DNA of 64,000 nucleotides from Pseudomonas sp. KU26590 (GTDB taxonomy: Bacteria; Pseudomonadota; Gammaproteobacteria; Pseudomonadales; Pseudomonadaceae): positions 1,579,501 through 1,643,500 of the forward strand of contig NZ_CP110644.1 of the NCBI RefSeq assembly GCF_026153515.1. Reading direction: 5' to 3'. A program made the position numbers and the translations under genes. Below the pieces are notes generated by a model. It saw only the letters and a program-made list of their open reading frames with translations, was not told the DNA's origin and searched no databases. This document shows positions 43,552 to 59,460 of this stretch, piece by piece. Every line of letters starts with the position of its first letter. Positions within the stretch are counted from its first letter, which is position 1.

Positions 43552-45987
43552 CTACTTCACCAACGTCAACTCACCATCGCGATACAGCACCTCACACCCT
43601 AACCACGCCACATCTACTTGAGGCAGTATCGCTGAAGGTTTGCGCAACTCGCGCAACAACGTCGAGCCGTGGGACAAGCGCCCGCCCATCCGCGCAATCA
43701 CCGCCCGCGCCGCTTGGTAGTGTGCATGTCGCCCCGGATCGAGGGTGTCTTCGAGTAAAATGTCGTCGCCCAGAACCCCTTGCACCTGCCCCGGATAAAT
43801 CATGAAACCGGTGGCTTGTTCGGTGCCTTCGCGACCGTCCTGCCAGAAGCTGCCGTCGCGGCTACGAATGTCTGGATGAGGCGCAAACCAATGCGCTCGA
43901 TCCGCCATCGGCATGGCGTGGTGCAGGCGAAAAAAGATCCGCATCAGGTTGTCGCGATACCATTCGCGCACTTGCAGGTAGTAACCACGCAGGCCCGGCA
44001 AGCCGGTCGAATGGGCTAAGCGGATAAACCCCGGCCATTGGGGGAAGGCCTGTAATGGCAGATCCGTTGGGGCCGGGCGCGGCGTGGCCGGATCGGTTTC
44101 CCAGGGCAGTCGATGCGGGCTGTTTTCAAGATCGTCATAAGCCGTCGGCGGCCGGCCCAGCAGGTCGCCGCCGCTGCTGGCCAGTGAGGTGGCGATGCAC
44201 AAGTTGCCTTGCACCACGAACACATAAAACCAGGTGAACCAGTCGGCCAGTTGTTGGCCGTCAGCGCCTTGGGCGATCAGCTCGGACAGTTCTTCGTCGA
44301 AACGGCGCAAGCGCTTTTCTAATGTCAGCAAATGCCCGCGCGCGATACGCTGCATACGCAGGAACAACGGCAACGAGCGCAGCATTCGCAGCGGTCGCCA
44401 AGGCAGATGCGGGGTCGCGCCGCCGACTTCACCGGCGTAGCTGCTGGCAGAGATCCCCCAGTCGGCCAATCGGGCGAGAAACAGATCATTGTTGATGTAC
44501 GACGCGCCGCCAAACACAGCGGTGAACGGCTCGTTATCCTGCAACACCCGCGAATCCCAACGCGCCATGATCGCCGGAATACTCGCCGCCGCACGTCGCT
44601 GGGCGTACTCCACGAAAACGCTCGGTTGTGGTGGCAGGATTTCGGCGATGTTGGCGGCCGTCAGGTGACGACGCCAACCGTAGTCGCTGATCGGCCGGTA
44701 TTGCAACAGCCACAGCTTCGTACCGTCCCAGGCCCATTCAACGTCGCCAGGCACGTAGTGAAAGACCCGCAAAACGTCTTGTAGAAAGCGCCACAACAGG
44801 TCAGCGGTCAAGCCGAGTGAAGGCTTGAAGGTGTCGCTGCTCCAGGAGGCGCCGAGGCGGGAAATGATTGCGCGCTCGGGACTCACCTGACCATCGGCCA
44901 GTGACTCAAGATGCCCTTCCACCCATTCCAGTTCCACCGACAGGTGACGCACGAAAGCGATGCCGGACAGCTGCGGTGTGATGAAACGCTGCACCACCAC
45001 TTCTTCAACACCCGCGGCGCTCAATTCGGTAATACGAGCCGGCACGTTCGAAGTCGATTCGCGCAGGAACGTAGTGCTCAAACCCGCATTCGCCGCATCG
45101 GCCTGATCCTCGCCGTAACTGGAGGAACGCACCGCCCACGTGGCGCCCGGTTGGCTGGCGAGGAACGCCGGCAAGCGTGAATCATCGCAGTCATTGAGTG
45201 ACAGCGCTGGCGGCACCGCTTGCCCGGCCAACTCGGCCAGACGCAACCGACCACCCTTGGTGTGAGCGACGAATCCGCACTCACCCGACTCCAGCCACTC
45301 AGCGAACTCGGCCGGCGAGTCGATCCATGGGTAATGCCCCCAACCGGTTTTCAGGCTGATAGTCAGATCAGCGCGAGCCAGAATCGCCGACCAAGCGGCA
45401 GCCTGCTCGATGCCCAGCACATTGTCCTGATCGCCCCAGACCAACTCGACCGGATCGGTGATCCACTCCAGCAATGGCAACGCGGTGTCCGCCCGCACCA
45501 GGTCCCAGTGCGGCACAAATGCGCGGCAGCGTGCATAGCCGGCGCCCATGCGCTGGTACTGCGCGGGCGTCCAGGTCTGGTTGGAAAACTTGTGCGCAAA
45601 CAGCACGGACTTGTTCGACAGTAGCCAGTGAATGGTTTTGCGAATGGGCAGCGGCGACATCAATGCCGGCAGCCGTCGTTGCCACAAAAACGCCCCCACC
45701 GGCGCCAACAAAACACTGCGGCAAAAGTGCCCCGGCTGACGTTGTAGCGCATGCAACACCAGCAACGCATTCACCCCGACCGCCATGATCGCGCTGCCTT
45801 TGACGGTCGCCGTCACCAGGGCCTGAGCGTAGGCGGCAAGGTCTTCGCACGGGGCTTGAGGATTATTGCCGAAGCCTGGTAGTTCCAGTGGTACCACCTG
45901 ATAGCGCTCAAAGTGCGGCAACGCGTCATCCCACCAATCGGCGGCACCACCGTTGCCGGCCAGCAGGTACATCAGGGGCTTGCTCAT
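43552..45987 (-). CDS. Fusion: alpha/beta-hydrolase fold + PEP-synthase/RPH-like ATP-binding domain + phospho-His domain
   Basis: The 811-residue protein has three parts. Residues 1-240 have an alpha/beta-hydrolase fold, with the acid in LVWGDQDNVLG and the His in TGWGHYPWIDSP, but the nucleophile elbow reads AVGVNALLV, with Asn73 where Ser is expected. Residues about 270-460 are a PPDK_N/PEP-synthase ATP-binding domain: WAVRSSSYGED, EVVVQRFI, SGIAFVRH and DVEWAWDGTKLWLLQYRPIS. The C-terminus has the swivelling phosphohistidine motif GGRLSHGSTLLRELRKPSAI with the His retained. The order ATP-binding, linker (NIAEILPP), His domain matches rifampin phosphotransferase. It probably phosphorylates a small molecule; the dead hydrolase may bind it. 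It follows the epimerase gene by 9 bp, so it is cotranscribed. Confidence 0.8.
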   Translation of the reverse strand: MSKPLMYLLAGNGGAADWWDDALPHFERYQVVPLELPGFGNNPQAPCEDLAAYAQALVTATVKGSAIMAVGVNALLVLHALQRQPGHFCRSVLLAPVGAFLWQRRLPALMSPLPIRKTIHWLLSNKSVLFAHKFSNQTWTPAQYQRMGAGYARCRAFVPHWDLVRADTALPLLEWITDPVELVWGDQDNVLGIEQAAAWSAILARADLTISLKTGWGHYPWIDSPAEFAEWLESGECGFVAHTKGGRLRLAELAGQAVPPALSLNDCDDSRLPAFLASQPGATWAVRSSSYGEDQADAANAGLSTTFLRESTSNVPARITELSAAGVEEVVVQRFITPQLSGIAFVRHLSVELEWVEGHLESLADGQVSPERAIISRLGASWSSDTFKPSLGLTADLLWRFLQDVLRVFHYVPGDVEWAWDGTKLWLLQYRPISDYGWRRHLTAANIAEILPPQPSVFVEYAQRRAAASIPAIMARWDSRVLQDNEPFTAVFGGASYINNDLFLARLADWGISASSYAGEVGGATPHLPWRPLRMLRSLPLFLRMQRIARGHLLTLEKRLRRFDEELSELIAQGADGQQLADWFTWFYVFVVQGNLCIATSLASSGGDLLGRPPTAYDDLENSPHRLPWETDPATPRPAPTDLPLQAFPQWPGFIRLAHSTGLPGLRGYYLQVREWYRDNLMRIFFRLHHAMPMADRAHWFAPHPDIRSRDGSFWQDGREGTEQATGFMIYPGQVQGVLGDDILLEDTLDPGRHAHYQAARAVIARMGGRLSHGSTLLRELRKPSAILPQVDVAWLGCEVLYRDGELTLVK

Positions 45988-45996
45988 GGGTTGTCC

Positions 45997-47439
45997 TCAG
46001 GCTAGATCGCGCAGGGCAGCGTCGAGGGTCGGGTAACGGAACGTGTAACCCGCCTCGGTCAGACGGCTGGGCACTACGCGCTGACCGTCGAAGAACAACT
46101 GCGCCATTTCGCCGGCCAGTGCGCGTACCGGCGTGGCCGGAATGTGGAACCACACCGGGCGCTTCAAGACTTTACCGACACGCTCGGCGAACACCGCCTG
46201 ACTGACCGCGTCCGGCGCCACCAGGTTGTAGATGCCGCTCAGGTTGTCGTCGGCGAATGCGCGGGCGATCACTTGAATCACATCATCGCGGTGCACCCAA
46301 CTCATGATCTGTTGGCCATCGCCCATCCGCCCGCCAAACCCCAGGCGGAACGGAATCAGCAACGGCAACAACGCGCCGCCGGGGCCGAACACCACCCCCA
46401 GACGCAGCACCACCTGACGCACGCCGAATTCGATGGCCGGTTGCGCGGCGGCTTCCCATTTTGCGCACAACTCAGCCATGAATCCGTCACCCTTGCTGGC
46501 GCGTTCATCAAGACTTTCGCTAGCATCGCGCACGCCGTAAAAACCAATGGCCGAGGCCTGAACCCAAAGCGCCGGTTTACGCCGGACGTTCTTCAGCCAG
46601 CTGATCAATGTTTCAGTGGTGTTGACCCGACTGGCGATCAGTTGCGCCTGGCGCTTGGCACTCCAGCGTGGCCCCGCCACCGGCGCACCGGCCAAATTGA
46701 TCACCACGTCGAAGGTTTCGTTGTAGCCCAGTTTGCTCAGCGAACGCAGGCACCGGGCGCGGCCATCAAACAGGTACGCCGCTTTCAGCGGATCGCGAGC
46801 CAGCACGCTGACGGTGTGACCGGCGTCGAGCAATTGATTGACCAGCACTTCACCGATAAACCCGGTGCCACCGGTCACCAGCACGCGCTTATAAGCGCCG
46901 CCCGCGAACGGGTTCGACGGCTTGCCTTCGCTCTGCATGCGCAGCGCCGCCAATCCATCGCGAATGCCCGAGGCCGTCACGCCGACAGCGAACAACGTCA
47001 GCAACCAGCCGCGCCAGCCGAAATCGATCGCGCTCAGGCCCGTCGGCAGACTCGCCCACTGCGCCAGTTGCACCCCGTACAAAGCAAAAAACGCCCCGCC
47101 ATTCACCGCCAACACGGTGTGCATGATCCGCTCGATGGCCGGCAGTTTGCGGCTGCGATCCTCGACCACGAAATCCCACAGAGTCAGGCCGATCTCCAGT
47201 GCGAACAGCAACGCAATCACAATCGCCCACGTGCCCTGAAACGCCAGATGCGCCATGCCCAGAAACAGAATCCCGTAGAAACACGACCGCAGCGCGTGGA
47301 TCGACAACTCCAGCCGAGCGCTGTGCCGATAAGGCAACGCGACAGTGAGTTCGTGGTGATAGAGGGTATCCAGCGCCCCGAGAATGGCTTGGGCAATAAG
47401 CAGCGCGACCGCCCAATCCAGGAGAGAAAAATCAGACAT
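45997..47439 (-). CDS. TIGR01777-type NAD(P)-dependent epimerase with N-terminal membrane domain
   Basis: The 480-residue protein has about 160 N-terminal residues with four or five TM helices (LLDWAVALLIAQAILGALDT, CFYGILFLGMAHLAFQ, WAIVIALLFALEIGLTLWDF) and then a TIGR01777/YfcH-type short-chain dehydrogenase. The Rossmann motif is VLVTGGTGFIGEVLVNQLL; SAIGFYGVRDASE carries the tyrosine region, and the domain ends with the DUF1731-like tail. Usual YfcH proteins are about 300 aa and soluble. The ATG at 47439 overlaps the stop of the upstream gene by 8 bp and the frame upstream of it overlaps that gene, so this start is favoured. Confidence 0.82.
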   Translation of the reverse strand: MSDFSLLDWAVALLIAQAILGALDTLYHHELTVALPYRHSARLELSIHALRSCFYGILFLGMAHLAFQGTWAIVIALLFALEIGLTLWDFVVEDRSRKLPAIERIMHTVLAVNGGAFFALYGVQLAQWASLPTGLSAIDFGWRGWLLTLFAVGVTASGIRDGLAALRMQSEGKPSNPFAGGAYKRVLVTGGTGFIGEVLVNQLLDAGHTVSVLARDPLKAAYLFDGRARCLRSLSKLGYNETFDVVINLAGAPVAGPRWSAKRQAQLIASRVNTTETLISWLKNVRRKPALWVQASAIGFYGVRDASESLDERASKGDGFMAELCAKWEAAAQPAIEFGVRQVVLRLGVVFGPGGALLPLLIPFRLGFGGRMGDGQQIMSWVHRDDVIQVIARAFADDNLSGIYNLVAPDAVSQAVFAERVGKVLKRPVWFHIPATPVRALAGEMAQLFFDGQRVVPSRLTEAGYTFRYPTLDAALRDLA

Positions 47440-47920
47440 GGTTGGCGTCACTCGGCGTGTTGTTTGAAGGGGCGGTGCGGCGGTCATGGCGATAGAGCCA
47501 GAACAGCGGCGGCAGCAGGGTGAGCAGCGCGAGGCTGTCGAACCACAGGTGTGACCAGACACGAGCCTGGGCGGAGACCCACATGTCTTGCGGCGCCCAC
47601 AGCACGATGCCGGCGATTAACCAGCCCCAGGCCATGGGACTTCTCAGTCGATGGCCGATGCGCACGAGGGCGAGCATGTAGAGGGAGTAGCTTTGCAGCG
47701 TGGCGCCGAATAAGGCGACCCACCAGACTTGTTGGGCGCGGGCGGCGATGGGTACGGCGTCGGTTGCCCAGAAAGCTTGTTCGATGGTTTGTAGGAAACC
47801 GTCGAGTAATCCCGAATGGCCGGCCCAGGTCAGCGCGAGGCTGACTAGTAGATGCACTAGGGCCGCGGCGTACAACCAAAGCACTAGTGCAGAGCGAAGG
47901 GCGTTTGATGGGGCTGGCAT
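47432..47920 (-). CDS. Small membrane protein of the three-gene module
   Basis: The 162-residue protein has four predicted TM helices (LVLWLYAAALVHLLVSLALT, VWWVALFGATLQSYSLYMLA, AWGWLIAGIVLWAPQDMW, SLALLTLLPPLFWLYR). The ATG at 47920 follows AGGAAA; the frame to 47974 has no site. No family recognised with confidence; the pattern recalls DoxX-like/cell-division-inhibitor-associated membrane proteins. It is the first gene of the operon whose next members are the epimerase and the fusion protein, and may form one membrane complex with the epimerase. Confidence 0.65.
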   Translation of the reverse strand: MPAPSNALRSALVLWLYAAALVHLLVSLALTWAGHSGLLDGFLQTIEQAFWATDAVPIAARAQQVWWVALFGATLQSYSLYMLALVRIGHRLRSPMAWGWLIAGIVLWAPQDMWVSAQARVWSHLWFDSLALLTLLPPLFWLYRHDRRTAPSNNTPSDANHV

Positions 47921-48556: not shown

Positions 48557-49755
48557 TTATTTTGATCCCAGCTTTCTCTGCCCGGCCCGGTCGTTCGGTC
48601 CATCTGGCCGAGGTCTGACCGGGGCTTCACTTTTCATCTCCTTGATCAGCGGCAGCTTGGCGATGGCCGGAATGGTTTCTGCCCGACCCAGGCTGGCGAG
48701 CATTTCCTGGGTCTTGGCCGTGCCCATGCCGACCCCGTCCTTGGTGTCATTGGTGACGACAAAAAGATAAAGGGGCTCCTTGCGGCATGCTTTGAAGTAT
48801 TTCCCTGCCAGTGTCTTTAGGTGATCGGCCAGCGGCGGCCAGCGGAAGTACTGGTTCTCGATATAGATGAACTGGGTGACGTTGTTGGCAGCCACCATGT
48901 AACCGCTCTGGATGTCTCGAACGGGTTTTTCATGGTCGCCCACGTCATCCTTGTGCTTGCGGTTGGTTTTGTGCTGGCCCACCTGAGCCTGGGTGCGCAA
49001 CACTTGCATCATCAACCGCGTGCCGTTCTGGAACTGGAGACGATTGGAGGTCGGATCGCAATCGCGGCAGGCGAGCAGGTCCTCGCCGGTTTCCTTGCGC
49101 CAGGCGATGGCGAAGTTCTGGTGCACATCGTGGAGGATCGGCCCGGACACCATGCATGAGATGTCCTGGCGTGGCGTAGAGCCGCGCGAGCCTAGATAGG
49201 GCGCAGGCTTGGTACCTTCTTCACGGTTCAGTGCCGAGTGTTGATCGGTGTCCCAATATTCGTCCAGCGAATTGTGACCCATGACAAAGCCGACCGAGCT
49301 GGGTAGTTCATAGTCGACCAGTACACTTTTCTGGTGGTGCGAGGCGCTGGCGCTCAGGACGAGTTGCATGCCCACGCTGATATTGGGATCGAGCGCTTCA
49401 TACTTCACCCAGTGCTTAATCTCTAACCTTTCATTGGCGCTGAAGCCACGACTCACGAACACGGGGGATTTACCATTGACTCGCTCAGCCGCCTTGCCAT
49501 CGGATACCGCGTATTCAGAGAACCATTCGCGGTCGTACTTGAACTGATCCTTGGTCGAGCTTTGCATGGCTCGAGAATTCAGTCGAAGCGAGCCCTTGCC
49601 CGGCAGGTTGCCTTCGCCTGCCATGCCTGCGGAGTTGAAGGGCATTTCCCAGCCCAGTATGCGCACCTTCACACCGTTGGCAGCCTTGATCCTGAGCAGT
49701 TCGCCAATGCAGGGGTGGGATCCGTCGCGGATGAAATACATGGAAGGCTGAAAGC
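48557..49755 (-). pseudogene. Truncated copy of the phospholipase D effector gene
   Basis: About 1.19 kb almost identical to the inner part of the intact effector gene at 53387-55258 (roughly from GFQPSMYF to DRAGQRKL). It keeps the first HKD motif (HQKSVLVD) but lacks the N-terminus, the second HKD motif and the C-terminus. The frame is open (about 400 codons) but starts in unrelated sequence and ends in IS-derived sequence (KLGSK-stop). It is best seen as a duplication remnant that could act as a recombination donor. Confidence 0.88.
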
Positions 49756-49779
49756 CCAAGCAGATAAGTGACCGATTTT

Positions 49780-49848
49780 CCAAGTCACTGTTGTTGCAGC
49801 AAGCAGTGCTTGCTGGAAATGAATCAAAGTCTGCATAACGTTATCCAT
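49780..49848 (-). pseudogene. Remnant of a fourth Sel1 gene start
   Basis: On the minus strand ATGGATAACGTTATG then CAGACTTTGATT closely matches the first codons of the Sel1 gene at 50979 (ATGGATAACGCTATG then CGCACCCTGATC). After about ten codons similarity ends. It stands in front of the truncated phospholipase copy, as if an older effector/immunity unit was deleted between the two. Confidence 0.45.
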
Positions 49849-49944
49849 GTGTTTGCATATCTGGCCGCCCTGCCTGAGCCAATGTCGGGTCCTTTTTCAA
49901 TGTCTGCTGCAACGACGATAGCAGGCATTGGTGGCGTATAGAAA

Positions 49945-50967
49945 TCAACTTTGTTCTAAAGGCAACCCTGTGACAGGATCCAAGTCTTTTTCCTTACTAA
50001 GTCGTTGCAGTAATGCATCGTCGGGCTTGTTGGGGACGGTTTTTGCTTCACGTTCTTTTTGCCATTGGAAGGTGCCATCCCATGAGGGAAGCTTGGCTGG
50101 TGGTAAAGGAGCAATAACATCTAAATCTGGAACTTTTGCTCCCAGTGCTTCATTTGTTTTTAGAAACTTATGAACGGCGTCATATCGCTTCGATCTTTCC
50201 TCGTCCGCTTCCAAGTTCATATAAAACAAGCTATCTGGTGAAGAGGTTTCTTTGAATGCCTCACTTAGCATCTTTGATGAAACTGTATTTCCCGATCTCG
50301 TAGCCTGCTGATAAGCGTCAACAGCATCTTTATATTTTTTCCCTGTACGCAGATAAGCCGCTAGCTCTCTAGCTGATTGCGCATGGCCTTGATAGGCAGC
50401 ACAGCGCAGCATTTCCTCCATGACGCCTGCTCCACCTTTGATACGTCCTAGTAACGTAGCGACGTAGTACTGAGCGTCAGGGCTACCTAAGTCAGCTGCT
50501 TTTCGAAAATATGCATTTGATTTTTCTTGATCTTGCTCAACGCCATAGCCAGATTCAAGGTAATGGCCCATATCGTAGTAAGCACTTGGAACACCCAGGG
50601 TCATAAATTTTTCTACCAGTGCTATGACCTCTTTTTGCCCACTGGGAGAGCTTGCCAGGCCTTGTGTAATCAGCATTTGTAAGTTGGTTGCAGCTTTGTA
50701 GTGCTCATGAGCAGCTGCAATTCGATAGTAGCGAGCTGCTTCACTGAAATCACCCGGGCTTTCTCTTTTTTGAAGAAATAAGCCGTATTTGTAGAGCGCA
50801 TCTGCGTCTTGGCTAACCGAGGGGGGCATGTCAGCTTCGTGATGACATTCAAATGTGACGTTGTTCTGTAAAGCACGCTCCCCGGAGATTACGGAAGACA
50901 ATTCGATTTTGTCGGCCATTGCTATGGCAGGCAGAGTGGCCAGCAATAAATAGATCAGGGTGCGCAT
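49945..50967 (-). CDS. Sel1-repeat periplasmic protein, candidate effector immunity (third in row)
   Basis: The 340-residue protein has a Sec signal peptide (MRTLIYLLLATLPAIAMA) and Sel1-like/TPR repeats: ALYKYGLFLQ, AARYYRIAAAHEHYKAATNL, SAYYDMGHYLESGYGV and SNAYFRKAADLGSPDAQYYV. It is a more distant paralogue of the two lipoproteins at 51139 and 52332; the C-terminal block APLPPAKLPSWDGTFQWQKE is shared. In P. aeruginosa the PldB effector is encoded beside three such Sel1 proteins (PA5086-5088), at least some of which neutralise it in the periplasm. The region is AT-richer than the rest of the window. The start at 50967 gives the signal peptide; 50979 is possible. Confidence 0.82.
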   Translation of the reverse strand: MRTLIYLLLATLPAIAMADKIELSSVISGERALQNNVTFECHHEADMPPSVSQDADALYKYGLFLQKRESPGDFSEAARYYRIAAAHEHYKAATNLQMLITQGLASSPSGQKEVIALVEKFMTLGVPSAYYDMGHYLESGYGVEQDQEKSNAYFRKAADLGSPDAQYYVATLLGRIKGGAGVMEEMLRCAAYQGHAQSARELAAYLRTGKKYKDAVDAYQQATRSGNTVSSKMLSEAFKETSSPDSLFYMNLEADEERSKRYDAVHKFLKTNEALGAKVPDLDVIAPLPPAKLPSWDGTFQWQKEREAKTVPNKPDDALLQRLSKEKDLDPVTGLPLEQS

Positions 50968-51078
50968 AGCGTTATCCATATTAGTGGTGTTAGGCGATGC
51001 ACCCGCTGTGCAAACTTCTTGTTCTGAAAGAGCGAACGCATAATCTGGGTTCCATGCCGAGAAGAGGGGGCAAACGGA

Positions 51079-51112
51079 TTTGCATGCACTGATCACTGCT
51101 GGCACATGCAAA
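51079..51112. repeat. Hairpin repeat between Sel1 genes, copy 1
   Basis: TTTGCATG (51079-51086) pairs with CATGCAAA (51105-51112). The same hairpin is at 52271-52304 with about 70% identical loop, showing that the gene plus its flank was duplicated. Confidence 0.6.
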
Positions 51113-51138
51113 ACCTTGTCTGCCACTTGAAGCTGTCA

Positions 51139-52194
51139 TCAGTCTTCCTTGCTGTATACCGGAGAGCCTGGCAAGGGCTTGCCTGTTTTAGGGTCAAGCA
51201 TGATGGCCTTGGCCAATTGCTCGATCAGCGCTTCGGAAGGCTTGGGCGGCGGGATGTTGGCTTCACGCTCTTCAACCCATTTTAGCTTGCCATCCCAGGC
51301 TGGGAGCTTGGCTGGCGGCAAGGGGACGATTTCGTTGATTTCGGGGACGCTTGGGTTGGCGTAGGACCAGTTGCCTAGTAATTTGCTGATTCTTTTGTAA
51401 CGTTCAGCACGTTCTTGGTCTTTCTGCTGTTCAAGATAGTACATGCGATTGTCTGGCCTGGGATCACTAAAACTTTTACTCAAAGAAGCCGCTGAAAATT
51501 CGTCACCCGCTGCAACGCCCAACTGGAGAGCCTCAAGAGCAGCTCGATAGCTCTTACTTAATTTTTGATCTACACCTAAAGCTCTAGCTGCTTCTCCGTT
51601 GCCCTGCTCAGCCGCGCAGCTACGCATTTTGCGAGCAATCTCAAGAGCAGTATTGGCGGCCTCAAGCTTGTCAGCTACATAGCTTTGTGCTTGCGCACTT
51701 CCCTTATCCGCTGCTTTACGAAAGTAACGCAGGGACATATCTTCATCCTGCTGCAGCCCAGCCGCGCCCTTTTGAAGATAGATGGCGATCATGTAATACC
51801 CCCAAGCCACATGCGCATCTATCAGCTGTTGGCTAAGTCGTAATCTTTCCCCTCCAGTGAGCTTGAACTGGCCGCGCATTGCACCGTTCTGCAGGTTGAC
51901 GTTGGCCTTGTAGTGATTGTTTTCAGCTGCAATGCGATACAGCCTTCCGATCTCGACGTCGACCGCTTCATCCTGCTGAATCTGATTGTTTTTCTGCAGC
52001 CAGCGGGCGTACTGGAACAGTACGTCCGTTTCCGCCGAAGGGGCCGGTATTTTCTCGTGTGCGCAGGTAAATGCCAGCTTGGCGTTGACTTCGCTCAACT
52101 GACTCAGGGGCGCGTCCTTCGTCCGTGAGGTAAGGTCATTGCCGGAGCTGCAGGCGGCCAACAGCAGGCTTGAAAGCAACAAAGTCAGGCGCAT
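51139..52194 (-). CDS. Sel1-repeat lipoprotein, candidate effector immunity (second in row)
   Basis: The 351-residue lipoprotein has lipobox LLAACSSG (Cys15) and Sel1-like repeats (LYRIAAENNHYKANVNL, GYYMIAIYLQKGAAGL, SLRYFRKAADKGSAQAQSYV). It is nearly identical to the product at 52332 in residues 1-165 and the last 65 residues, but differs strongly between about 170 and 285. This pattern fits immunity paralogues diverging at the toxin contact surface. It lies in line with the effector gene on the same strand. Periplasm-facing outer-membrane anchoring is expected. Confidence 0.83.
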   Translation of the reverse strand: MRLTLLLSSLLLAACSSGNDLTSRTKDAPLSQLSEVNAKLAFTCAHEKIPAPSAETDVLFQYARWLQKNNQIQQDEAVDVEIGRLYRIAAENNHYKANVNLQNGAMRGQFKLTGGERLRLSQQLIDAHVAWGYYMIAIYLQKGAAGLQQDEDMSLRYFRKAADKGSAQAQSYVADKLEAANTALEIARKMRSCAAEQGNGEAARALGVDQKLSKSYRAALEALQLGVAAGDEFSAASLSKSFSDPRPDNRMYYLEQQKDQERAERYKRISKLLGNWSYANPSVPEINEIVPLPPAKLPAWDGKLKWVEEREANIPPPKPSEALIEQLAKAIMLDPKTGKPLPGSPVYSKED

Positions 52195-52270
52195 CAGTCA
52201 TGGTCCGTCATAGTAGCGTCGCGATAATAAGGTTCAACGAGAGCGTGTCGGGTTTGAGTTTGGGCAGAGA

Positions 52271-52304
52271 TTTGCATGCGCAGACCACTCTCGGCACATG
52301 CAAA
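52271..52304. repeat. Hairpin repeat between Sel1 genes, copy 2
   Basis: TTTGCATG (52271-52278) pairs with CATGCAAA (52297-52304); see the copy at 51079. Confidence 0.6.
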
Positions 52305-52331
52305 ACCCCCGCTCGGCAAATGGATCTGTGA

Positions 52332-53387
52332 TCAGTCTTCCTTGTTGTAAACGGGAGAGCCCGGCAATGGCTTACCTGTTTTAGGATCAAGCACCATGGC
52401 CTTGGCCAGTTGCTCGATCAGCGCTTCGGAGGGCTTGGGCGGCGGGATGTTGGCTTCACGTTCTTCAACCCATTTCAACTTGCCATCCCAGGCCGGGAGT
52501 TTGGTTGGTGGCAGGGGAACGATTTCGTTGATTTCTGGGACGCTTGGGTTGGCGTAGGATAAGTTACCCAATACCTTGCCAATTTGCTTGTAACGTTGCG
52601 CTCGTTCAAGGTCCTCTGTCTGGCCTATATAATACAAGCGATCATCTGACTTAGGGCCGCGAAAACCATTCTCTAAAAAAGACGCTGAGCTCTCGTCGCC
52701 TGCTGCGACTCCTAACTGAAAAGCTTCAAGAGCGGCCTGATATTGTTTAGCCGTTTTCAAATGTACACCTAATGCTCCGGCTGCTTTGCCGTTACCTTGC
52801 TCGGCAGCACAGCGACGCATTTGTCTTGCAATATCCGGTGCAATATCAGTAGGCGCGAGTTTTTCGGCAACGTATGCTTGCGCTTGCGCACTTCCCTCAT
52901 CTGCCGCTTTGCGAAAGTAGCGCAGGGACATATCCTCGTCTTGTTGCAGACCCGCCGCGCCCTTTTGAAGATAGATGGCGATCATGTAATATCCCGAAGC
53001 CACATGTGCATCTATCAACTGCTGGCTAAGGCGTAGTCGTTCCCCACCCGTGAGCTTGAAATGGCCACGCATGGCGCCGTTCTGCAGATTGACGTTGGCC
53101 TTGTAATGGTTGTTTTCTGCCGCGATGCGATACAGTCTTCCGATCTCGATATCGACCGTTTCATCCTGCTGGATCTGATTGTTTTTCTGCAACCAACGGG
53201 CGTACTTGAACAGCACGTCCGTTTCTGCCGAAGGGGCCGGGATTTTCTCGTGTACGCAGGTAAATGCCAGCTTGGCGTTGACTTCGCTCAACTGATTCAA
53301 GGGAGTGTCCTTTGTCCGTAAAGTAATGGCGTTGCTGGAGCTGCAGGCAACCAACAGCAGGCTTGAGAGCAAAAGAGTCAGGCGCAT
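52332..53387 (-). CDS. Sel1-repeat lipoprotein, candidate cognate immunity (first in row)
   Basis: The 351-residue lipoprotein (lipobox LLVACSSS, Cys15) has the same Sel1 layout as its neighbour. Its start codon overlaps the stop of the phospholipase effector (TGATG), so it is translated with the toxin; that is the usual arrangement for the cognate immunity gene. It should protect the periplasmic face of the inner membrane from the phospholipase delivered by sister cells. Confidence 0.86.
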   Translation of the reverse strand: MRLTLLLSSLLLVACSSSNAITLRTKDTPLNQLSEVNAKLAFTCVHEKIPAPSAETDVLFKYARWLQKNNQIQQDETVDIEIGRLYRIAAENNHYKANVNLQNGAMRGHFKLTGGERLRLSQQLIDAHVASGYYMIAIYLQKGAAGLQQDEDMSLRYFRKAADEGSAQAQAYVAEKLAPTDIAPDIARQMRRCAAEQGNGKAAGALGVHLKTAKQYQAALEAFQLGVAAGDESSASFLENGFRGPKSDDRLYYIGQTEDLERAQRYKQIGKVLGNLSYANPSVPEINEIVPLPPTKLPAWDGKLKWVEEREANIPPPKPSEALIEQLAKAMVLDPKTGKPLPGSPVYNKED

Positions 53388-55258
53388 CAGTCAAAGTCCG
53401 TCATAGATGTTTCGGTATAATAAAATTCGACTAGAGGGGCGACAGGCTTAAGCTTAAACTTGTCATTTCGAGATTCGTTGTTCTGCCTGATTATATTTTC
53501 CCAAGCTTTGAATGCTTCTTCAGGATCATCCTGCACCCCTTGCCCCTCCGTATGCAGATTCCACAACCGCCGCCGCAACGGCTGACTAAACTCTGGATGC
53601 TCGTGGCAGATGTTCAGTTCACTATCGACCATCATGCTTCGAGTGTTGATGTTGGCTGAGCCGTGTGTGGTGTAGACGTCATCGACGATCATCAGCTTGG
53701 AGTGGATATAAACCGGCATCCAGGGCTTGCCCGTCGGCGAGTCGATTGCGACCAATGAGCAAACATGAATCTTCAAGCCCGGCACTGTTTCCGGTCGTAG
53801 CTCGGTTTCTTCAATCTCCTTGGTTTTCCTGTCCATGTCCGCTTGCCATTCGTCCAGCTTTCTCTGCCCGGCCCGATCATTTGGGCCATCTGGCCTAGGT
53901 CTGACCGGGGCTTCACTTTTCATCTCCTTGATTAGTCGCAGCTTGGTGATGGCCGGGATGGTCTCTGCCCGGCCCAGGCTGGCGAGCATTTCCTGCGTCT
54001 TGGCCGTGCCCATGCCAACCCCGTCCTTCGTGTCATTGGTGACGACAAAGAGATAAAGGGGCTCCTTGCGGCCTGCTTTAAGGTATTTCCCTGCCAGTGT
54101 CTTGAGGTGATCAGCCAGCGGCGGCCAGCGGAAGTATTGGTTTTCGATATAGATGAACTGGGTGACGTTGTTGGCAGCCACCATGTAACCGCTCTGGATG
54201 TCTCGAACGGGTTTTTCATGGTCGCCCACGTCATCCTTGTGCTTGCGGTTGGTTTTGGGCTGGCCCACCTGAGCCTGGGTGCGCAACACTTGCATCATCA
54301 ACCGCGTGCCGTTCTGGAACTGGAGACGATTGGAGGTCGGATCGCAATCGCGGCAGGCGAGCAGGTCCTCGCCGGTTTCCTTGCGCCAGGCAATGGCAAA
54401 GTTCTGGTGCACATCGTGGAGGATCGGCCCGGACAACATGCATGAGATGTCCTGGCGCGGCGTAGAGCCGCGCGAGCCTAGATAGGGCGCAGGCTTGGTA
54501 CCTTCTTCACGGTTCAGTGCCGAGTGTTGATCGGTGTCCCAATACTCGTCCAGCGAATTGTGACCCATGACAAAGCCGACCGCGCTGGGCAGTTCATAGT
54601 CGACCAGTACACTTTTCTGGTGGTGCGAGGCGCTGGCGCTCAGGACGAGTTGCATGCCCACGCTGATATTGGGATCGAGCGCTTCATACTTCACCCAGTG
54701 CTTAATCTCTAACCTTTCATTGGCGCTGAAGCCACGACTCACGAACACGGGGGATTTACCATTGACTCGCTCAGCCGCCTTGCCATCGGACACCGCGTAT
54801 TCAGAGAACCATTCGCGGTCGTACTTGAACTGATCCTTGGTCGAGCTTTGCATGGCTCGAGAATTCAGTCGAAGCGAGCCCTTGCCCGGCAGGTTGCCTT
54901 CGCCTGCCATGCCTGCGGAGTTGAAGGGCATTTCCCAGCCCAGTATGCGCACCTTCACACCGTTGGCAGCCTTGATCCTGAGCAGTTCGCCAATGCATGG
55001 GTGGGATCCGTCGCGGATGAAGTACATGGAAGGCTGAAAGCCCCAGCAGATGATTTCGACGGATTTCTCGGCTTTTGCAATGGCCTCAAAGACAGCCCTG
55101 AATGCTTCTTCGCCGTTGACCAGCGGTCTATAGGTGGCCGGAATCGGGCTGAATTCACTGTTCTCGACGAACCAGCGCTGGACAATCCTGGCGCTGTTGG
55201 TGTGCGAGAGTGCGACAGGCACTGTTATGTTGGAGAGGCTGGGGAGTGGCGATTCCAT
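53387..55258 (-). CDS. Type VI secretion phospholipase D effector (Tle5/PldB type)
   Basis: The 623-residue protein has two PLD HKD motifs: His213-x-Lys215-x4-Asp220 (HQKSVLVD, followed by MGHNSLDEYWD) and His519 (HSKLMIVDDVYTTHGSANIN). Between them lies a long insert, as in PldA/PldB, and there is no signal peptide, as expected for T6SS cargo. Tle5 proteins hydrolyse phosphatidylethanolamine and other phospholipids in rival cells. VgrG lies directly upstream (160 bp) and three Sel1 genes downstream, the PldB layout. The ATG at 55258 follows GGAAC; the frame is open to 55342 but without a good site. Confidence 0.9.
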   Translation of the reverse strand: MESPLPSLSNITVPVALSHTNSARIVQRWFVENSEFSPIPATYRPLVNGEEAFRAVFEAIAKAEKSVEIICWGFQPSMYFIRDGSHPCIGELLRIKAANGVKVRILGWEMPFNSAGMAGEGNLPGKGSLRLNSRAMQSSTKDQFKYDREWFSEYAVSDGKAAERVNGKSPVFVSRGFSANERLEIKHWVKYEALDPNISVGMQLVLSASASHHQKSVLVDYELPSAVGFVMGHNSLDEYWDTDQHSALNREEGTKPAPYLGSRGSTPRQDISCMLSGPILHDVHQNFAIAWRKETGEDLLACRDCDPTSNRLQFQNGTRLMMQVLRTQAQVGQPKTNRKHKDDVGDHEKPVRDIQSGYMVAANNVTQFIYIENQYFRWPPLADHLKTLAGKYLKAGRKEPLYLFVVTNDTKDGVGMGTAKTQEMLASLGRAETIPAITKLRLIKEMKSEAPVRPRPDGPNDRAGQRKLDEWQADMDRKTKEIEETELRPETVPGLKIHVCSLVAIDSPTGKPWMPVYIHSKLMIVDDVYTTHGSANINTRSMMVDSELNICHEHPEFSQPLRRRLWNLHTEGQGVQDDPEEAFKAWENIIRQNNESRNDKFKLKPVAPLVEFYYTETSMTDFD

Positions 55259-55416
55259 GGGAGTTCCGTTCCTTATAGGTTCTGACACGCTGGCTGACCG
55301 GGATGGCAAGCTGGATGGCTGACAGTTGATTGCACAAGCCATGGCCGTTCTGCACGGTCAACAGTAACCGTGCCGGTTGCAAACCTGTTCCTGGCTGGGC
55401 TAGGTGTCCCCATTGT

Positions 55417-58317
55417 TCACGTTTCCGATTCTGACTCTGGATTGTTCAGCGAGGTGTACAGGGCCCGGAACTTACTCTCAGTTCCTGCCCGAGCGTTCGT
55501 TGAACCCGTTTGGTTGCTATGGCGATGAAATCCGCTGTTGGCGAATTCGGCATTGCTTTGCTCGCCTTGGTACTGCCCGCCGACCGGAATGTCGTAACTC
55601 ACGCCATTGGCCAGTTCGAGCGTGTATCTGCTGGTTGTGGGGTGGTGATCAATGCCAATTGCCCCGGTTTTATCCATGACGCCTTTTTGGACGACTGATG
55701 CCCCGTCACGCACTGTGTAAGGCATACCAGCCCACGCACTGGAGCTTCCGGCGTTGGTTTGCCCAGCATAAAAGGTAAGCGCTTGGGTTACAGAGGACTC
55801 GGGCCAGGCAGGGTGGTCACGATTAAGCTGGGCTGGCCCGCTAAAAGTCTTCTTCGCCCCTTTGACATCAATCGTCCCCGGCGCGTGAATTTCGATGTTG
55901 CCGTCCTTGATGCGGATGTAACCGCCACCGCTGGTAAGCAATATGCCGTCTTGTGCGGCGATTTCTATTCCGGCAGCGGTCGAGGTAATTTTTACCCCTT
56001 GCTGCGCGGTCAGCTCCATCGCATCGCTCTGCGCCTGTAGCTCGATCTTGCCCTTGGCTGCAAACAGCTTCGCCCCGGCATTCTGCGCGAACAGGCTGAT
56101 GCTCTGCGCGACGCTGGCCAGCAGGGATTTGCCGCTGGCGATGTTGACGTCTTCACCGGTGCTCAGGGTCAGGTGCTTGCCGCTGTGCAGGTGGGTGCTT
56201 TTCGGCGTGGCGGTGGCGATATCGGCAGGGGACGAGGCGATCAGCAGAGGTTGCTGGTAGCCCGGTGTCTTGCCGCGTCCACCGCTGCGGATCGCCCAGG
56301 CGGTGTCGCCGCCGTTGCGTTGCTGCTCGCCGGGGCCCTGGCTCGGGGCGCCGTCATCGCTGCCGTAGGTCACGTCGGCATCGCTGTTGAGCTGGGTCAG
56401 GCTGTCCAGGCCTTCCTGCATGGGCAGGGCGTTGTGCTGTTGGGCGGTGTCGGACAGAGTCTTGACGCGCTGTTCGCTGTTTTTCAGTTGCTGTTGCGCT
56501 TCGCTGGCATCGATCTGTGCGCCCTGGGCGCCGCTGCGTTTCCAGGTGCTGAGGTACAAACCCTGCTGGGCGCGCAGGGCGCCGTAAGCATCGGTGCGCA
56601 GTTCAAACCCGGTACCGCGCAGGCCGCCGCGGTTGTTGCCGCGCTGGTCGATCAGGTAACCGAGGTTGAGCTGGGTATGGCCGTGACTGCTGTGGATCTG
56701 GGTGCGAACCTGGCCAGTGGAATCGTCCATCACCCACTGGTTGAAACCACCGCCGCCAACTTCCTTGCTCTTGTAACCGGCCATCAAACCGCTGGAGTGC
56801 CAGGCTGGCTTGTGGCCGCCGTAGACCTGGCCCATCACCAGTGGCCGATCAATGTCGTTATCCAGGAAGGTGATGACCACCTCTTCACCGGCACGCGGCA
56901 CGTGCACACTGCCCCAGTCCGGTCCGCTGCTCTGCTGCATCATGCGCAGCCAGCAGGAACCCAGTTCGCCGTCTTGAGACAAGCGGTCCCAGTGGAAGCG
57001 TACGCAAATCCGGTTCAGGGTGTCGGTAAACACTTCATGGCCGCTGGGTGTGACGACCACAGCGGTCTGTTGGCCGAGGCTTTTAGGTTTGAAATGCTCC
57101 GACGGGCTGCGGAACGGCACGCTGTGCAACTGGCCTTCAAAACGATTGAGGAAGAAGCCGTGGCTGCCGACGCCCAAGGTGTCCGCTACCTTGTTTACGA
57201 CGCCAAGCCCTGAAGGCTCAGGGCGCACCGATCTGAACAGCGCCGCCAGACTGCCCGGCACTTCGCGGCGTTCCTTGGCCAGCGGCAGGTTGCTCTCGGC
57301 GAAGATCTCGACTTCGATCAGCAGGAACTGACGCTCTTCAGCCGCCTTGCGCTCGTACAGCGGATGTTGGGTCAGCTCAAACCAGCGTCCGGCTTCCATT
57401 TGCCGCACGCCGCTCTGGCCCTGAATACGACGCGCCTGGGATTCACGCTGCTCGATCTGCACGCGGCTAAGCCATTCGCCACGGTCCTGCTTCTGCCAGC
57501 CGTATTGGCCTTGATACTCGTAACGCTCCAGCGCCTGTGGGGCCGAAGCGGCCTGCAAGGCGGGCATCACGGTTTCCCGTGGCTGGCCGTGGGCCAGGTA
57601 ATCGACACTGCGCCAATGCAGCTTGCCGCTGAGCAACTGCGAGCCACTGCTCCACTGGGTAATGCCGTCCTGCTTTTCGGTGGCGTTCTGGGTGTGAAAG
57701 CGAATGCTCTGGGGCGCCAGCGCGGGCAGGGTATCGACGGTGTCGGTAAAGACGATGCAATGCTTGTCTGCCGTATGTTCGACGTACCAGAAAAGACCTT
57801 CCTGCTCACACCAGCGCTGCACGAAGTTGGCATCACTCTCATTGAACTGGGTGACGTAGGACAGCGGTGCGTATTCGCGGCGCAGGTCCAGGCGGTAATT
57901 GCCCTTGGCCTGTTCGTACAGTGAGAAAACGGCTTCCAGAATCGTCGGCAGATTCTTGTCCTGCCAGATGCGGCAATCCAGGCGGTATTCAAGCAGGCTG
58001 ACCCACGGCGCGAAGACCAGTTGCCAGTCGTGCAGGCCACCGTCATTGCCCAGATAGCGCACGCTCTCGACCAGGCCATGACGCTGCGCGGGAGAACCGT
58101 CATCACAGAGGATCGCCAAGCTGACCGGCTGACCAATGAGTTTTTCAGGATCGTATTCGGTGTCCTGTACCACCACGTCGAGGGTGTAGCGGGGCACACG
58201 CCCGATGCGCTCGACCCCATGCACGCGCAGCGCCTGGAGCTGATGCTCGCCCAGCGGCGTGGTGAGTTGCAGCAAGCGTCCGCTCTGGCTGAGAGGGGTG
58301 CCAAAGGTCAGGTCCAT
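55417..58317 (-). CDS. vgrG: VgrG spike protein of the type VI secretion system, extended C-terminus
   Basis: The 966-residue protein has the gp27-like part (PLSQSGRLLQLTTPLGEHQL, FNESDANFVQRWCEQEGLF), the gp5 OB fold (RICVRFHWDR, CWLRMMQQSSGPDWG, GEEVVITFLDNDIDRPLVMG), a long linker with QIDASEAQQQL, and a DUF2345 beta-helix (HLTLSTGEDVNIASG, IELQAQSDAMELTAQQGVKI). About 120 further residues follow, including a region like a transthyretin-type domain (PYTVRDGASVVQKGVMDKTG). Such tails recruit a cognate effector, here most likely the phospholipase encoded next. AAGGAG lies 8 nt before the ATG. No Hcp, PAAR or T6SS structural genes are in the window, so the machine is encoded elsewhere. Confidence 0.93.
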   Translation of the reverse strand: MDLTFGTPLSQSGRLLQLTTPLGEHQLQALRVHGVERIGRVPRYTLDVVVQDTEYDPEKLIGQPVSLAILCDDGSPAQRHGLVESVRYLGNDGGLHDWQLVFAPWVSLLEYRLDCRIWQDKNLPTILEAVFSLYEQAKGNYRLDLRREYAPLSYVTQFNESDANFVQRWCEQEGLFWYVEHTADKHCIVFTDTVDTLPALAPQSIRFHTQNATEKQDGITQWSSGSQLLSGKLHWRSVDYLAHGQPRETVMPALQAASAPQALERYEYQGQYGWQKQDRGEWLSRVQIEQRESQARRIQGQSGVRQMEAGRWFELTQHPLYERKAAEERQFLLIEVEIFAESNLPLAKERREVPGSLAALFRSVRPEPSGLGVVNKVADTLGVGSHGFFLNRFEGQLHSVPFRSPSEHFKPKSLGQQTAVVVTPSGHEVFTDTLNRICVRFHWDRLSQDGELGSCWLRMMQQSSGPDWGSVHVPRAGEEVVITFLDNDIDRPLVMGQVYGGHKPAWHSSGLMAGYKSKEVGGGGFNQWVMDDSTGQVRTQIHSSHGHTQLNLGYLIDQRGNNRGGLRGTGFELRTDAYGALRAQQGLYLSTWKRSGAQGAQIDASEAQQQLKNSEQRVKTLSDTAQQHNALPMQEGLDSLTQLNSDADVTYGSDDGAPSQGPGEQQRNGGDTAWAIRSGGRGKTPGYQQPLLIASSPADIATATPKSTHLHSGKHLTLSTGEDVNIASGKSLLASVAQSISLFAQNAGAKLFAAKGKIELQAQSDAMELTAQQGVKITSTAAGIEIAAQDGILLTSGGGYIRIKDGNIEIHAPGTIDVKGAKKTFSGPAQLNRDHPAWPESSVTQALTFYAGQTNAGSSSAWAGMPYTVRDGASVVQKGVMDKTGAIGIDHHPTTSRYTLELANGVSYDIPVGGQYQGEQSNAEFANSGFHRHSNQTGSTNARAGTESKFRALYTSLNNPESESET

Positions 58318-58756: not shown

Positions 58757-59160
58757 ATGAAGCAAATGACCTTCGCCGATGCCGAGTACGCCGGTAAGCG
58801 CAAGCAAACCCGCAAAGAACTGTTCCTGATGAGATGGATCGGGTCGTGCCCTGGAAAGGTTTGATTGCCCTGAGCGAATCCCATTACCCGAAGGGCGAGG
58901 GCGGCCGCCCTGCCTATCCGTTGATGGCGATGCTGCAGGTTCACCTCATACAGAACTGGTTCGGTTACAGTGATCAGGCGATGGAAGAGGCGCTGTACGA
59001 AACGACGATCTTGCGCCAGTTTTCCGGTCTAAACCTGGAGCGAATTCCGGATGAAACCACCATCCTCAACTTCCGTCGCCTGCTGGAAAAACACGAGTTG
59101 GCCACGGGTATTCTCGGCGTGATCAATGGCTATCTGGGCGACCGTGGCTTGTCACTGCGG
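58757..59160 (+). pseudogene. IS5-family transposase remnant, frameshifted and truncated
   Basis: MKQMTFADAEYAGKRKQTRK then ELFL continues, after a single-base deletion near 58830, in another frame as MDRVVPWKGLIAL and GRPAYPLMAMLQVHLIQNWF. It ends with LLEKHELATGILGVINGYLG and breaks off at about 59160, before the catalytic core. The full IS5 transposase is about 320 aa, so roughly the N-terminal 130 residues remain. Inactive. Confidence 0.88.
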
Positions 59161-59382
59161 CCGTGTCTTTCGCGGAGTGAGTAAGGATCAGGCACGATTA
59201 AAAGGAGGCTGCAGGAGAGGGCGATCCATCTTCTTTACTCACCACATTCATGGGTGTTAAGTCGAGGTCGTGGATGCGTAGGAGGCAAGCCAGCTGACGG
59301 GGCCTGGGGGCACAGAAAGACTAGATGTCAACGCTCTAAGAAGGCTCGGAGGCCATGTGGTACGGGACTTTGAAGGGTGTGA
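59161..59382. other. Island right edge, no gene
   Basis: About 220 bp between the transposase remnant and the tRNA. This is where an integrase gene would normally sit; none is present. Confidence 0.5.
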
Positions 59383-59413
59383 GAGATGGAGCGGGTAGAG
59401 GGAATCGAACCCT
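59383..59413. repeat. Right attachment repeat (within tRNA-Gly 3' end)
   Basis: Identical to 43228-43258. It covers the T-arm and acceptor 3' strand of the intact tRNA-Gly and four bases outside. Confidence 0.9.
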
Positions 59414-59460
59414 CAACTAAAGCTTGGGAAGCTTTCGTTTTGCCACTAAACTATACCCGC
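59387..59460 (-). tRNA. tRNA-Gly(CCC)
   Basis: A 74-nt cloverleaf including encoded CCA: acceptor GCGGGTA/TACCCGC, D-stem GTTT/AAAC, anticodon arm AAAGC-TTCCCAA-GCTTT with anticodon CCC, and T-arm GAGGG-TTCGATT-CCCTC. It resembles E. coli glyU. It is the attachment target of the adjoining island. Confidence 0.96.

Follow-up and report, generated by a model that had tools for sequence, protein, structure and literature searches.

A dikinase-like fusion protein kept with a membrane partner in pseudomonads and Burkholderiales: a candidate membrane-coupled small-molecule dikinase

What could be the role of an enzyme that carries a hydrolase fold in front of its ATP-grasp and phosphohistidine domains, and that is encoded together with membrane proteins? 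The question is raised by three genes in a 64,000-nucleotide stretch of DNA from Pseudomonas sp. KU26590 (the window, base 1,579,501-1,643,500 of the one-contig, 6.18-Mb genome), which specify a membrane protein named here mem, a short-chain dehydrogenase/reductase (SDR) with a membrane domain of its own, and a long fusion protein. An earlier note, made from the letters of the window, had described this three-gene module as an engine resembling phosphoenolpyruvate (PEP) synthase or rifampin phosphotransferase (RPH), fused to an alpha/beta-hydrolase fold and made together with a membrane-tethered epimerase. Once recomputed, its coordinates and domain reading hold, and the sequence of hydrolase fold, ATP-grasp and phosphohistidine domains in the fusion is borne out by Pfam and Foldseek. 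We lean, without firm assurance, towards the view that the module is a membrane-coupled small-molecule dikinase. It is real, recurrent and, as far as we searched, undescribed, yet made of known parts. No description of this layout was found in the open PubMed Central papers searched, in keeping with what the earlier note had supposed.

The phosphotransfer half of the fusion is the natural start point. Pfam positions PPDK_N and then PEP-utilizers along the chain in the order of RPH, and the AF2 model (pLDDT 81.9) likewise displays an ATP-grasp domain, a middle domain and a C-terminal swivel histidine; the three best Foldseek matches to that model in the PDB are all RPH structures, 5hv3 (E 1.3e-11), 5hv1 and 5fbs, with 801-832 alignment columns for RPH matches at 13-14% identity. 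A local profile alignment (hhalign) with the PEP synthases of four sampled genomes, its own among them, brings R287, T306, E417, Q429/R431 and H773 onto the ATP-site and swivel-histidine motifs of these enzymes, the stretches AVRSS..T, DVEWA, LLQYRP and GGRLSH of the fusion being placed accordingly. Conservation was counted in 203 relatives, namely 123 database proteins and 80 proteins from the loci described below, many of them near-copies. K244, R287, T306, E417, Q429, R431, R674, E675, R678 and H773 are each kept in 201-203 of them, the histidine in all 203 and the R674-E675-x-x-R678 pattern in 202, so that, judged from residues, this half is under strict constraint; one locus (L039) has a fusion that stops 10 residues early. 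In RPH-Lm, His825 carries the phosphate, and Lys22, Arg117, Thr136, Arg666 and Glu667 are needed for rifampin inactivation, Glu297 being dispensable (PMC4844700). The ATP-site set Lys22, Arg117, Thr136 and Glu297 is matched in full by the fusion, K244 being equated by motif only. Motif alignment with PEP synthases, residue conservation and the RPH structures at the top of the Foldseek list thus all speak for the engine that the earlier note had proposed.

The second line of evidence is linkage. A scan of GTDB genomes returned 206 relatives, and locus counts refer to the best 80 of these 206. In 71 of the 80, mem adjoins the fusion gene or is fused to the SDR gene next to it, a co-occurrence which upholds the earlier note's claim that the genes belong together; the condition which that note had set for its refutation, a lack of co-occurrence in other genomes, did not arise. 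The arrangement varies nevertheless. Reading frames show mem and membrane-SDR as separate genes at 25 loci (L100 among them), a single 464-aa mem::SDR open reading frame at 22 (L027 is an example), where the SDR has lost the membrane domain of its own, mem immediately ahead of the fusion, the SDR being absent, at 24, and no mem in the locus at nine. Seven of these nine are lone fusion genes of Burkholderia, and all seven genomes carry mem and membrane-SDR side by side elsewhere, with an SDR-DoxX_3 protein about 1 kb away in the three regions read (by Pfam in two); the remaining two are a contig end (L095) and a locus that retains an SDR remnant only (L048). The overlap of 8 bp between mem and SDR recurs in 18 of 23 loci measured. 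Of the 24 SDR-less loci, 12 have an overlap of 8 nt and five one of 4 nt between the stop of mem and the closest in-frame ATG of the fusion. At L023 and L097 what appear, by eye, to be the last SDR codons were left as a deletion scar, and three whole genomes having SDR-less loci were found to contain no membrane-SDR domain at E 1e-5. Protein distances between fusion and mem are correlated (r 0.86, shuffled maximum 0.26, 71 loci), and so are those between fusion and SDR (r 0.91, shuffled maximum 0.43). The fusion tree requires at least 15 changes of layout by a quick method, 23 of its 77 inner branches being starred. In a sample of the genus, mem or SDR adjoins the fusion in 25 of 25 cases (24 of 30 loci listed by the genus search, read around the fusion, and that of the own genome). 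The module co-occurs, yet it is plastic: since the SDR is missing from 24 of 80 loci and mem is steadily kept, we take the core to be mem and the dikinase fusion, with the SDR as an option. An obligatory three-gene unit, with the SDR as a needed partner, must accordingly be rejected, and so must the idea that the membrane tether of the SDR is essential, as it is lost in 22 loci.

Several observations weigh against a membrane-coupled dikinase of this type. The match with RPH is one of order and local fold and not of overall pose, because TM-scores between model and RPH are low (0.20-0.26), with a root-mean-square deviation of 16-20 A for the whole chain. The three alignments with PEP synthases are short and weak (hhalign probabilities of 34, 14 and 62% for the stretches), and the R674-E675-x-x-R678 pattern is equated with Arg666-Glu667-x-x-Lys670 of RPH by motif and unaligned. 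A profile search with the middle domain, for which no sequence match is detectable, reached the swivel part of PEP synthases only and not the R-E motif. The T/S of the T/SxxGGxxxH motif (PMC12167813) is mostly replaced (Ala in 193, Val in seven, Thr in two and a gap in one of 203, the window having Ala). The fusion scores 10.3 bits with the NCBIfam model of RPH, NF041857, the cut-off of which is 999, and does worse with this model than with those of PEP synthases and PigC. It is split into two pieces in three of 64 carriers of the genus sample (G007, G010 and G034). As for linkage, counts over the 80 loci are not independent because many are close relatives, and shared vertical descent alone could produce the correlations of distances.

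Membership in the established families is therefore a separate matter. RPH proper is rejected on the score just given: the fusion shares with RPH-Lm the order of ATP-grasp, substrate domain and C-terminal swivel histidine, the ATP-site residues and, by motif, R-E-x-x-(K/R), and differs by its N-terminal alpha/beta-hydrolase fold, its membrane partners and a middle domain without sequence match. PEP synthase and PPDK are rejected too, for the ATP-grasp and swivel motifs of PpsA are present and the C-terminal PEP/pyruvate-binding barrel is not found by Pfam up to E 1. Best NCBIfam E values for the fusion are 1.9e-7 for PEP-synthase-type models, 0.004 for PigC, 0.07 for RedH and 0.16 for RPH. The layout of the prodigiosin ligase PigC is the same overall as that of the fusion, and one may think of an ATP-driven condensation, in which the phosphate would only activate a substrate for coupling with a second one that the hydrolase or SDR domain holds. 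The PigC and RedH matches, weak but better than that of RPH, are in line with such a ligase; they stay under those of the PEP-synthase-type models, and no constant partner genes are found nearby, and we hold it to be improbable. A relation in logic is provided by the phenolic dikinases HpeHI, CreHI and PpsAB, which are small-molecule dikinases with a swivel histidine and with a residue other than Thr two positions before it, Met there and Leu in the fusion (202 of 203); they consist of two separate proteins instead of a single chain with a hydrolase fold, and the fusion has mostly Ala at the T/S of the motif (PMC12167813).

The N-terminal half of the fusion raises a different question, that of whether it hydrolyses anything. 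Its fold stands, with D188 and H218 of the triad kept in 201 of 203 relatives. The position of the nucleophile is Asn in 153 (the window among them, N73), Ser in 42, Gly in four and a gap in four, that is, serine in about a fifth. To judge by this residue, this half is mostly not maintained as a serine hydrolase, and because the serine is mostly gone the word hydrolase designates here a fold, without implying activity. Foldseek matches to it include the membrane phospholipase 6i8w, ABHD6 and BioH.

A similar caution applies to the SDR. Its dehydrogenase domain scores 315 bits against a TIGR01777 cut-off of 207, and below the cut-off of the ThyD model; what separates the protein from the TIGR01777, YfcH and ThyD group is an extra N-terminal membrane domain, replaced by mem in the 22 mem::SDR loci. 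No Tyr-xxx-Lys is present anywhere in the SDR domain of 115 of 121 rows, that of the window included, and where it would be expected, at a place assigned by eye, Phe-xxx-Leu is found instead (of 120 relatives, 119 have the Phe and 118 the Leu). Classical SDR catalysis is therefore not expected, the epimerase reaction which the earlier note had thought to rearrange the substrate is rejected, and the term epimerase, too, names a fold and implies no activity. As a whole, the reading put forward in that note survives in part: the engine and the linkage stand, whereas the need for the SDR, its tether, its epimerase chemistry and, in most members, the active hydrolase do not. The SDR of Rhodoferax sp. 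OV413 (L100:8559-10001), left out of the alignment, has an internal stop while its mem and fusion are open.

The mem::SDR and SDR-less forms also expose two unnamed membrane families with invariant or near-invariant polar residues. In mem, R9, W15, H23, W32, FW50-51, Q63, WW66-67, FGAT71-74, Q76, W108, PQD110-112, S116 and D128 are invariant in 27 rows (L066 and L071 were left out because the range ran beyond the end of the gene). In the SDR membrane domain 14 residues, D24, H29, E30, E44, H48, R51, E82, D89, E93, D94, R97, E103, R104 and H107, are found in 119-120 of 120 listed relatives, with two ExxxH motifs among them. A search with this domain gave 649 matches, Burkholderia, Ralstonia and Cupriavidus being among the 120 listed, and it is present in 10 genomes of a 398-genome sample of the phylum; the fusion was not found in stretches of 2.5-3.5 kb around it in the nine of these genomes other than the own. 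Of four wider regions that were read, one (L139) has a MarR-type regulator and DUF4166 beside the domain. At L137:7475-10762 (G1007), a MarR-type regulator, mem, a stand-alone SDR membrane domain, SDR-DoxX_3 and DUF2269 stand in a row, a membrane set without fusion within the 18 kb read.

In mycobacteria there is a precedent for an SDR joined to a PEP-utilizing swivel domain. Rv2047c unites an N-terminal epimerase and a C-terminal PEP-utilizing domain in one chain and shares an operon with pks12, and the authors of the study propose that it takes part in making mycoketide; in the available part of this account two domains are named, and neither a hydrolase fold nor a membrane partner is mentioned (PMC7058343). 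It would be, by analogy, the best parallel in the literature (PMC7058343), and it leads to the idea of a lipid-phosphate pathway, in which an alcohol of lipid, isoprenoid or polyketide type would be a substrate of the SDR and would be phosphorylated by the dikinase, so that a membrane phospholipid or carrier results, in the manner of Rv2047c and Pks12 in the synthesis of mannosyl-phosphomycoketide. Besides the domain pair and the operon (PMC7058343), the following speaks for it: NF004520, an NCBIfam model of 854 aa named 'sugar epimerase family protein', has matches in the swivel part of the fusion (14 of 16 members, best E 2.8e-4) as well as in the SDR (five of eight, best E 2e-7); two of the three proteins are membrane proteins by prediction or sequence; and the Foldseek matches of the hydrolase fold include those named above. 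The matches of the window proteins are, however, very weak, 9.9 bits (E 0.14) for the fusion part and 16.1 bits (E 0.0019) for the SDR against a cut-off of 1509, are limited to common domains, and are exceeded, for the SDR, by those of other models. NF004520 is presumably the family to which Rv2047c belongs. The SDR is absent from 24 loci, and, since no neighbour family from outside the module exceeds 26 of 80 loci, none with an acyl, polyketide or prenyl function is constantly present around it. We consider this pathway unlikely, though not so much so as to lose sight of it.

Returning to the membrane-coupled dikinase, we infer the following course of events from the anatomy, conservation and linkage described and from the fused and reduced forms of the module. 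The ATP-grasp domain would bind ATP; the swivel would dock, and His773 accept the beta-phosphate, with release of AMP and Pi; the swivel would then move to the middle domain, where the phosphate would pass to a hydroxyl of the bound substrate, R674, E675 and R678 standing in for Arg666, Glu667 and Lys670 of RPH at the transfer. The alpha/beta-hydrolase domain of most members most likely serves to bind the substrate, or to present it, without hydrolysing it. As the constant partner, mem would bring substrate or product to the inner membrane; the natural mem::SDR fusion suggests that the TIGR01777 SDR works on this same partner, perhaps as an optional subunit for tailoring or binding. With two membrane proteins among the three, and a hydrolase domain similar to lipases, among others, the substrate may be a hydrophobic one. 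Pushed to its most specific form, this would make the module an as yet undescribed membrane phosphometabolite pathway of pseudomonads and Burkholderiales, where a dikinase that has captured a mostly dead hydrolase domain as its substrate gripper acts on an alcohol of lipid, prenyl or polyketide type, bound by a new five-helix membrane family that in one lineage took the physical place of the SDR membrane domain. Proteobacteria would then have their own equivalent of the phosphoglycolipid route of mycobacterial Rv2047c and Pks12, a reading which we offer as a speculation with rather small chances of being right. RPH-type dikinases are a growing group, in which pyrrole joining is a further activity, and the module would contribute to it a member that has gained a hydrolase fold and steadily retains a membrane partner. 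Known members inactivate rifampin (PMC4844700) or activate phenols (PMC12167813).

How the module is distributed bears on its purpose. The fusion is present in 64 of 298 sampled Pseudomonas genomes, and in one of 369 genomes of a class sample, which is the own genome; three replicons of Burkholderia that carry it are classed as plasmids (0.85-1.26 Mb). With this share of carriers in Pseudomonas, the compound on which it acts may well be an ordinary metabolite of bacteria or soil; this compound can be sought in genetically tractable, non-pathogenic strains, and the mem::SDR and SDR-less forms point to mem or the fusion, not the SDR, as the first genes to delete. The module sits at several unrelated sites. 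With contexts assigned by neighbours, one shared family being sufficient, 29 of 80 loci lie in a VgrG/effector island (a VgrG-like or VgrG3-C-like gene flanks 25 of these), 13 at an ABC-permease/HlyD site (L100 is there by a chance match to one ABC family and belongs under 'other'), eight and 11 in two further Pseudomonas contexts, seven at a Burkholderia site and 12 elsewhere. Two genomes that are not among the 64 carriers illustrate the ABC/HlyD site without the module: in G503 the site is empty, with only a stretch resembling REP sequences, by eye, between the flanking genes, and in G513 a truncated mem alone remains.

This patchy, movable distribution would suit a resistance cassette, the fusion phosphorylating an antibiotic or a toxin from plants or soil as RPH does, and RPH is indeed the best match in whole layout among solved structures. 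A constant membrane partner would hardly be expected of a soluble drug kinase, and RPH is not known to require a membrane partner or an SDR. PADLOC gave no defence match for the three proteins up to E 0.1, which leads us to reject membership in anti-phage defence, resistance libraries having stayed outside this search; detoxification is to our mind quite unlikely. The neighbourhood of a VgrG gene, shared through such islands by 29 loci, might in turn evoke cargo of a type VI secretion system (T6SS), with the module as an effector or immunity set. As 51 of 80 loci are placed at other sites, and scans of the three proteins with Pfam and PADLOC detect neither effector nor immunity domains, we reject this proposal, to which we grant next to no likelihood.

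Among named organisms, Pseudomonas yamanorum IPO3780 (L021) gave the closest match to the module that was found, at 98-99% identity in each protein. The parts of the module are collected in Table 1.

Table 1. Position of the three genes and of their domains in the window
Feature	Coordinates	Strand	Remarks
mem	47920-47432	-	162-aa membrane protein, five predicted helices, no known family
mem stop/SDR start overlap	47432..47439	-	8 bp
SDR	47439-45997	-	480 aa, TIGR01777 with N-terminal membrane domain
SDR membrane domain	46915..47439	-	residues 1-175
SDR domain	46000..46884	-	residues 186-480; NAD(P)-binding TGGTGFIG; no Tyr-xxx-Lys
Fusion protein	45987-43552	-	811 aa; 9 bp downstream of SDR
Fusion, alpha/beta-hydrolase fold	45277..45987	-	residues 1-237; N73 codon 45771-45769; D188, H218 kept
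Fusion, ATP-grasp (PPDK_N)	44683..45270	-	residues 240-435; K244, R287, T306, E417, Q429, R431
Fusion, middle domain (presumed substrate domain)	43813..44670	-	residues 440-725; R674-E675-x-x-R678 at 43968-43954
Fusion, swivel phosphohistidine domain	43618..43806	-	residues 728-790; GGRLSH, H773 codon 43671-43669

Around the module, further features deserve mention. Repeated inverted sequences resembling REP elements surround it in L182, where several occur in a row, and in L055 (12437-12680). Downstream of the fusion in L058 the minus strand carries a set of genes: one encodes a fatty acid desaturase, assigned by Pfam, and others, judged by eye, a protein resembling sterol desaturases, another membrane protein and a CapK-like adenylating enzyme; minus-strand genes likewise follow in L062 and L063. 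In L094 and L099, which branch early under a midpoint root, a gene for an inosine-uridine nucleoside hydrolase comes directly after the fusion (L094:12442-13446, assigned by Pfam; L099:12445-13449), overlapping it by 4 nt in L099, and could be a further member of the operon in both. In the window itself, the module adjoins a VgrG island (48557-58317), where a VgrG-type protein with Phage_GPD and T6SS_Vgr domains (55417-58317, Pfam) is accompanied by a PLD-domain protein (53387-55342), then by two DUF6396/Sel1 proteins of 351 aa, 83% identical over 333 residues, and one of 393 aa. A partial copy of 408 aa at 48557-49783 has 98% identity to residues 97-496 of the PLD protein. A 116-aa open reading frame with a DUF772 transposase domain (58834-59184), probably a fragment, is situated between the VgrG gene and a tRNA-Gly (59387-59460).

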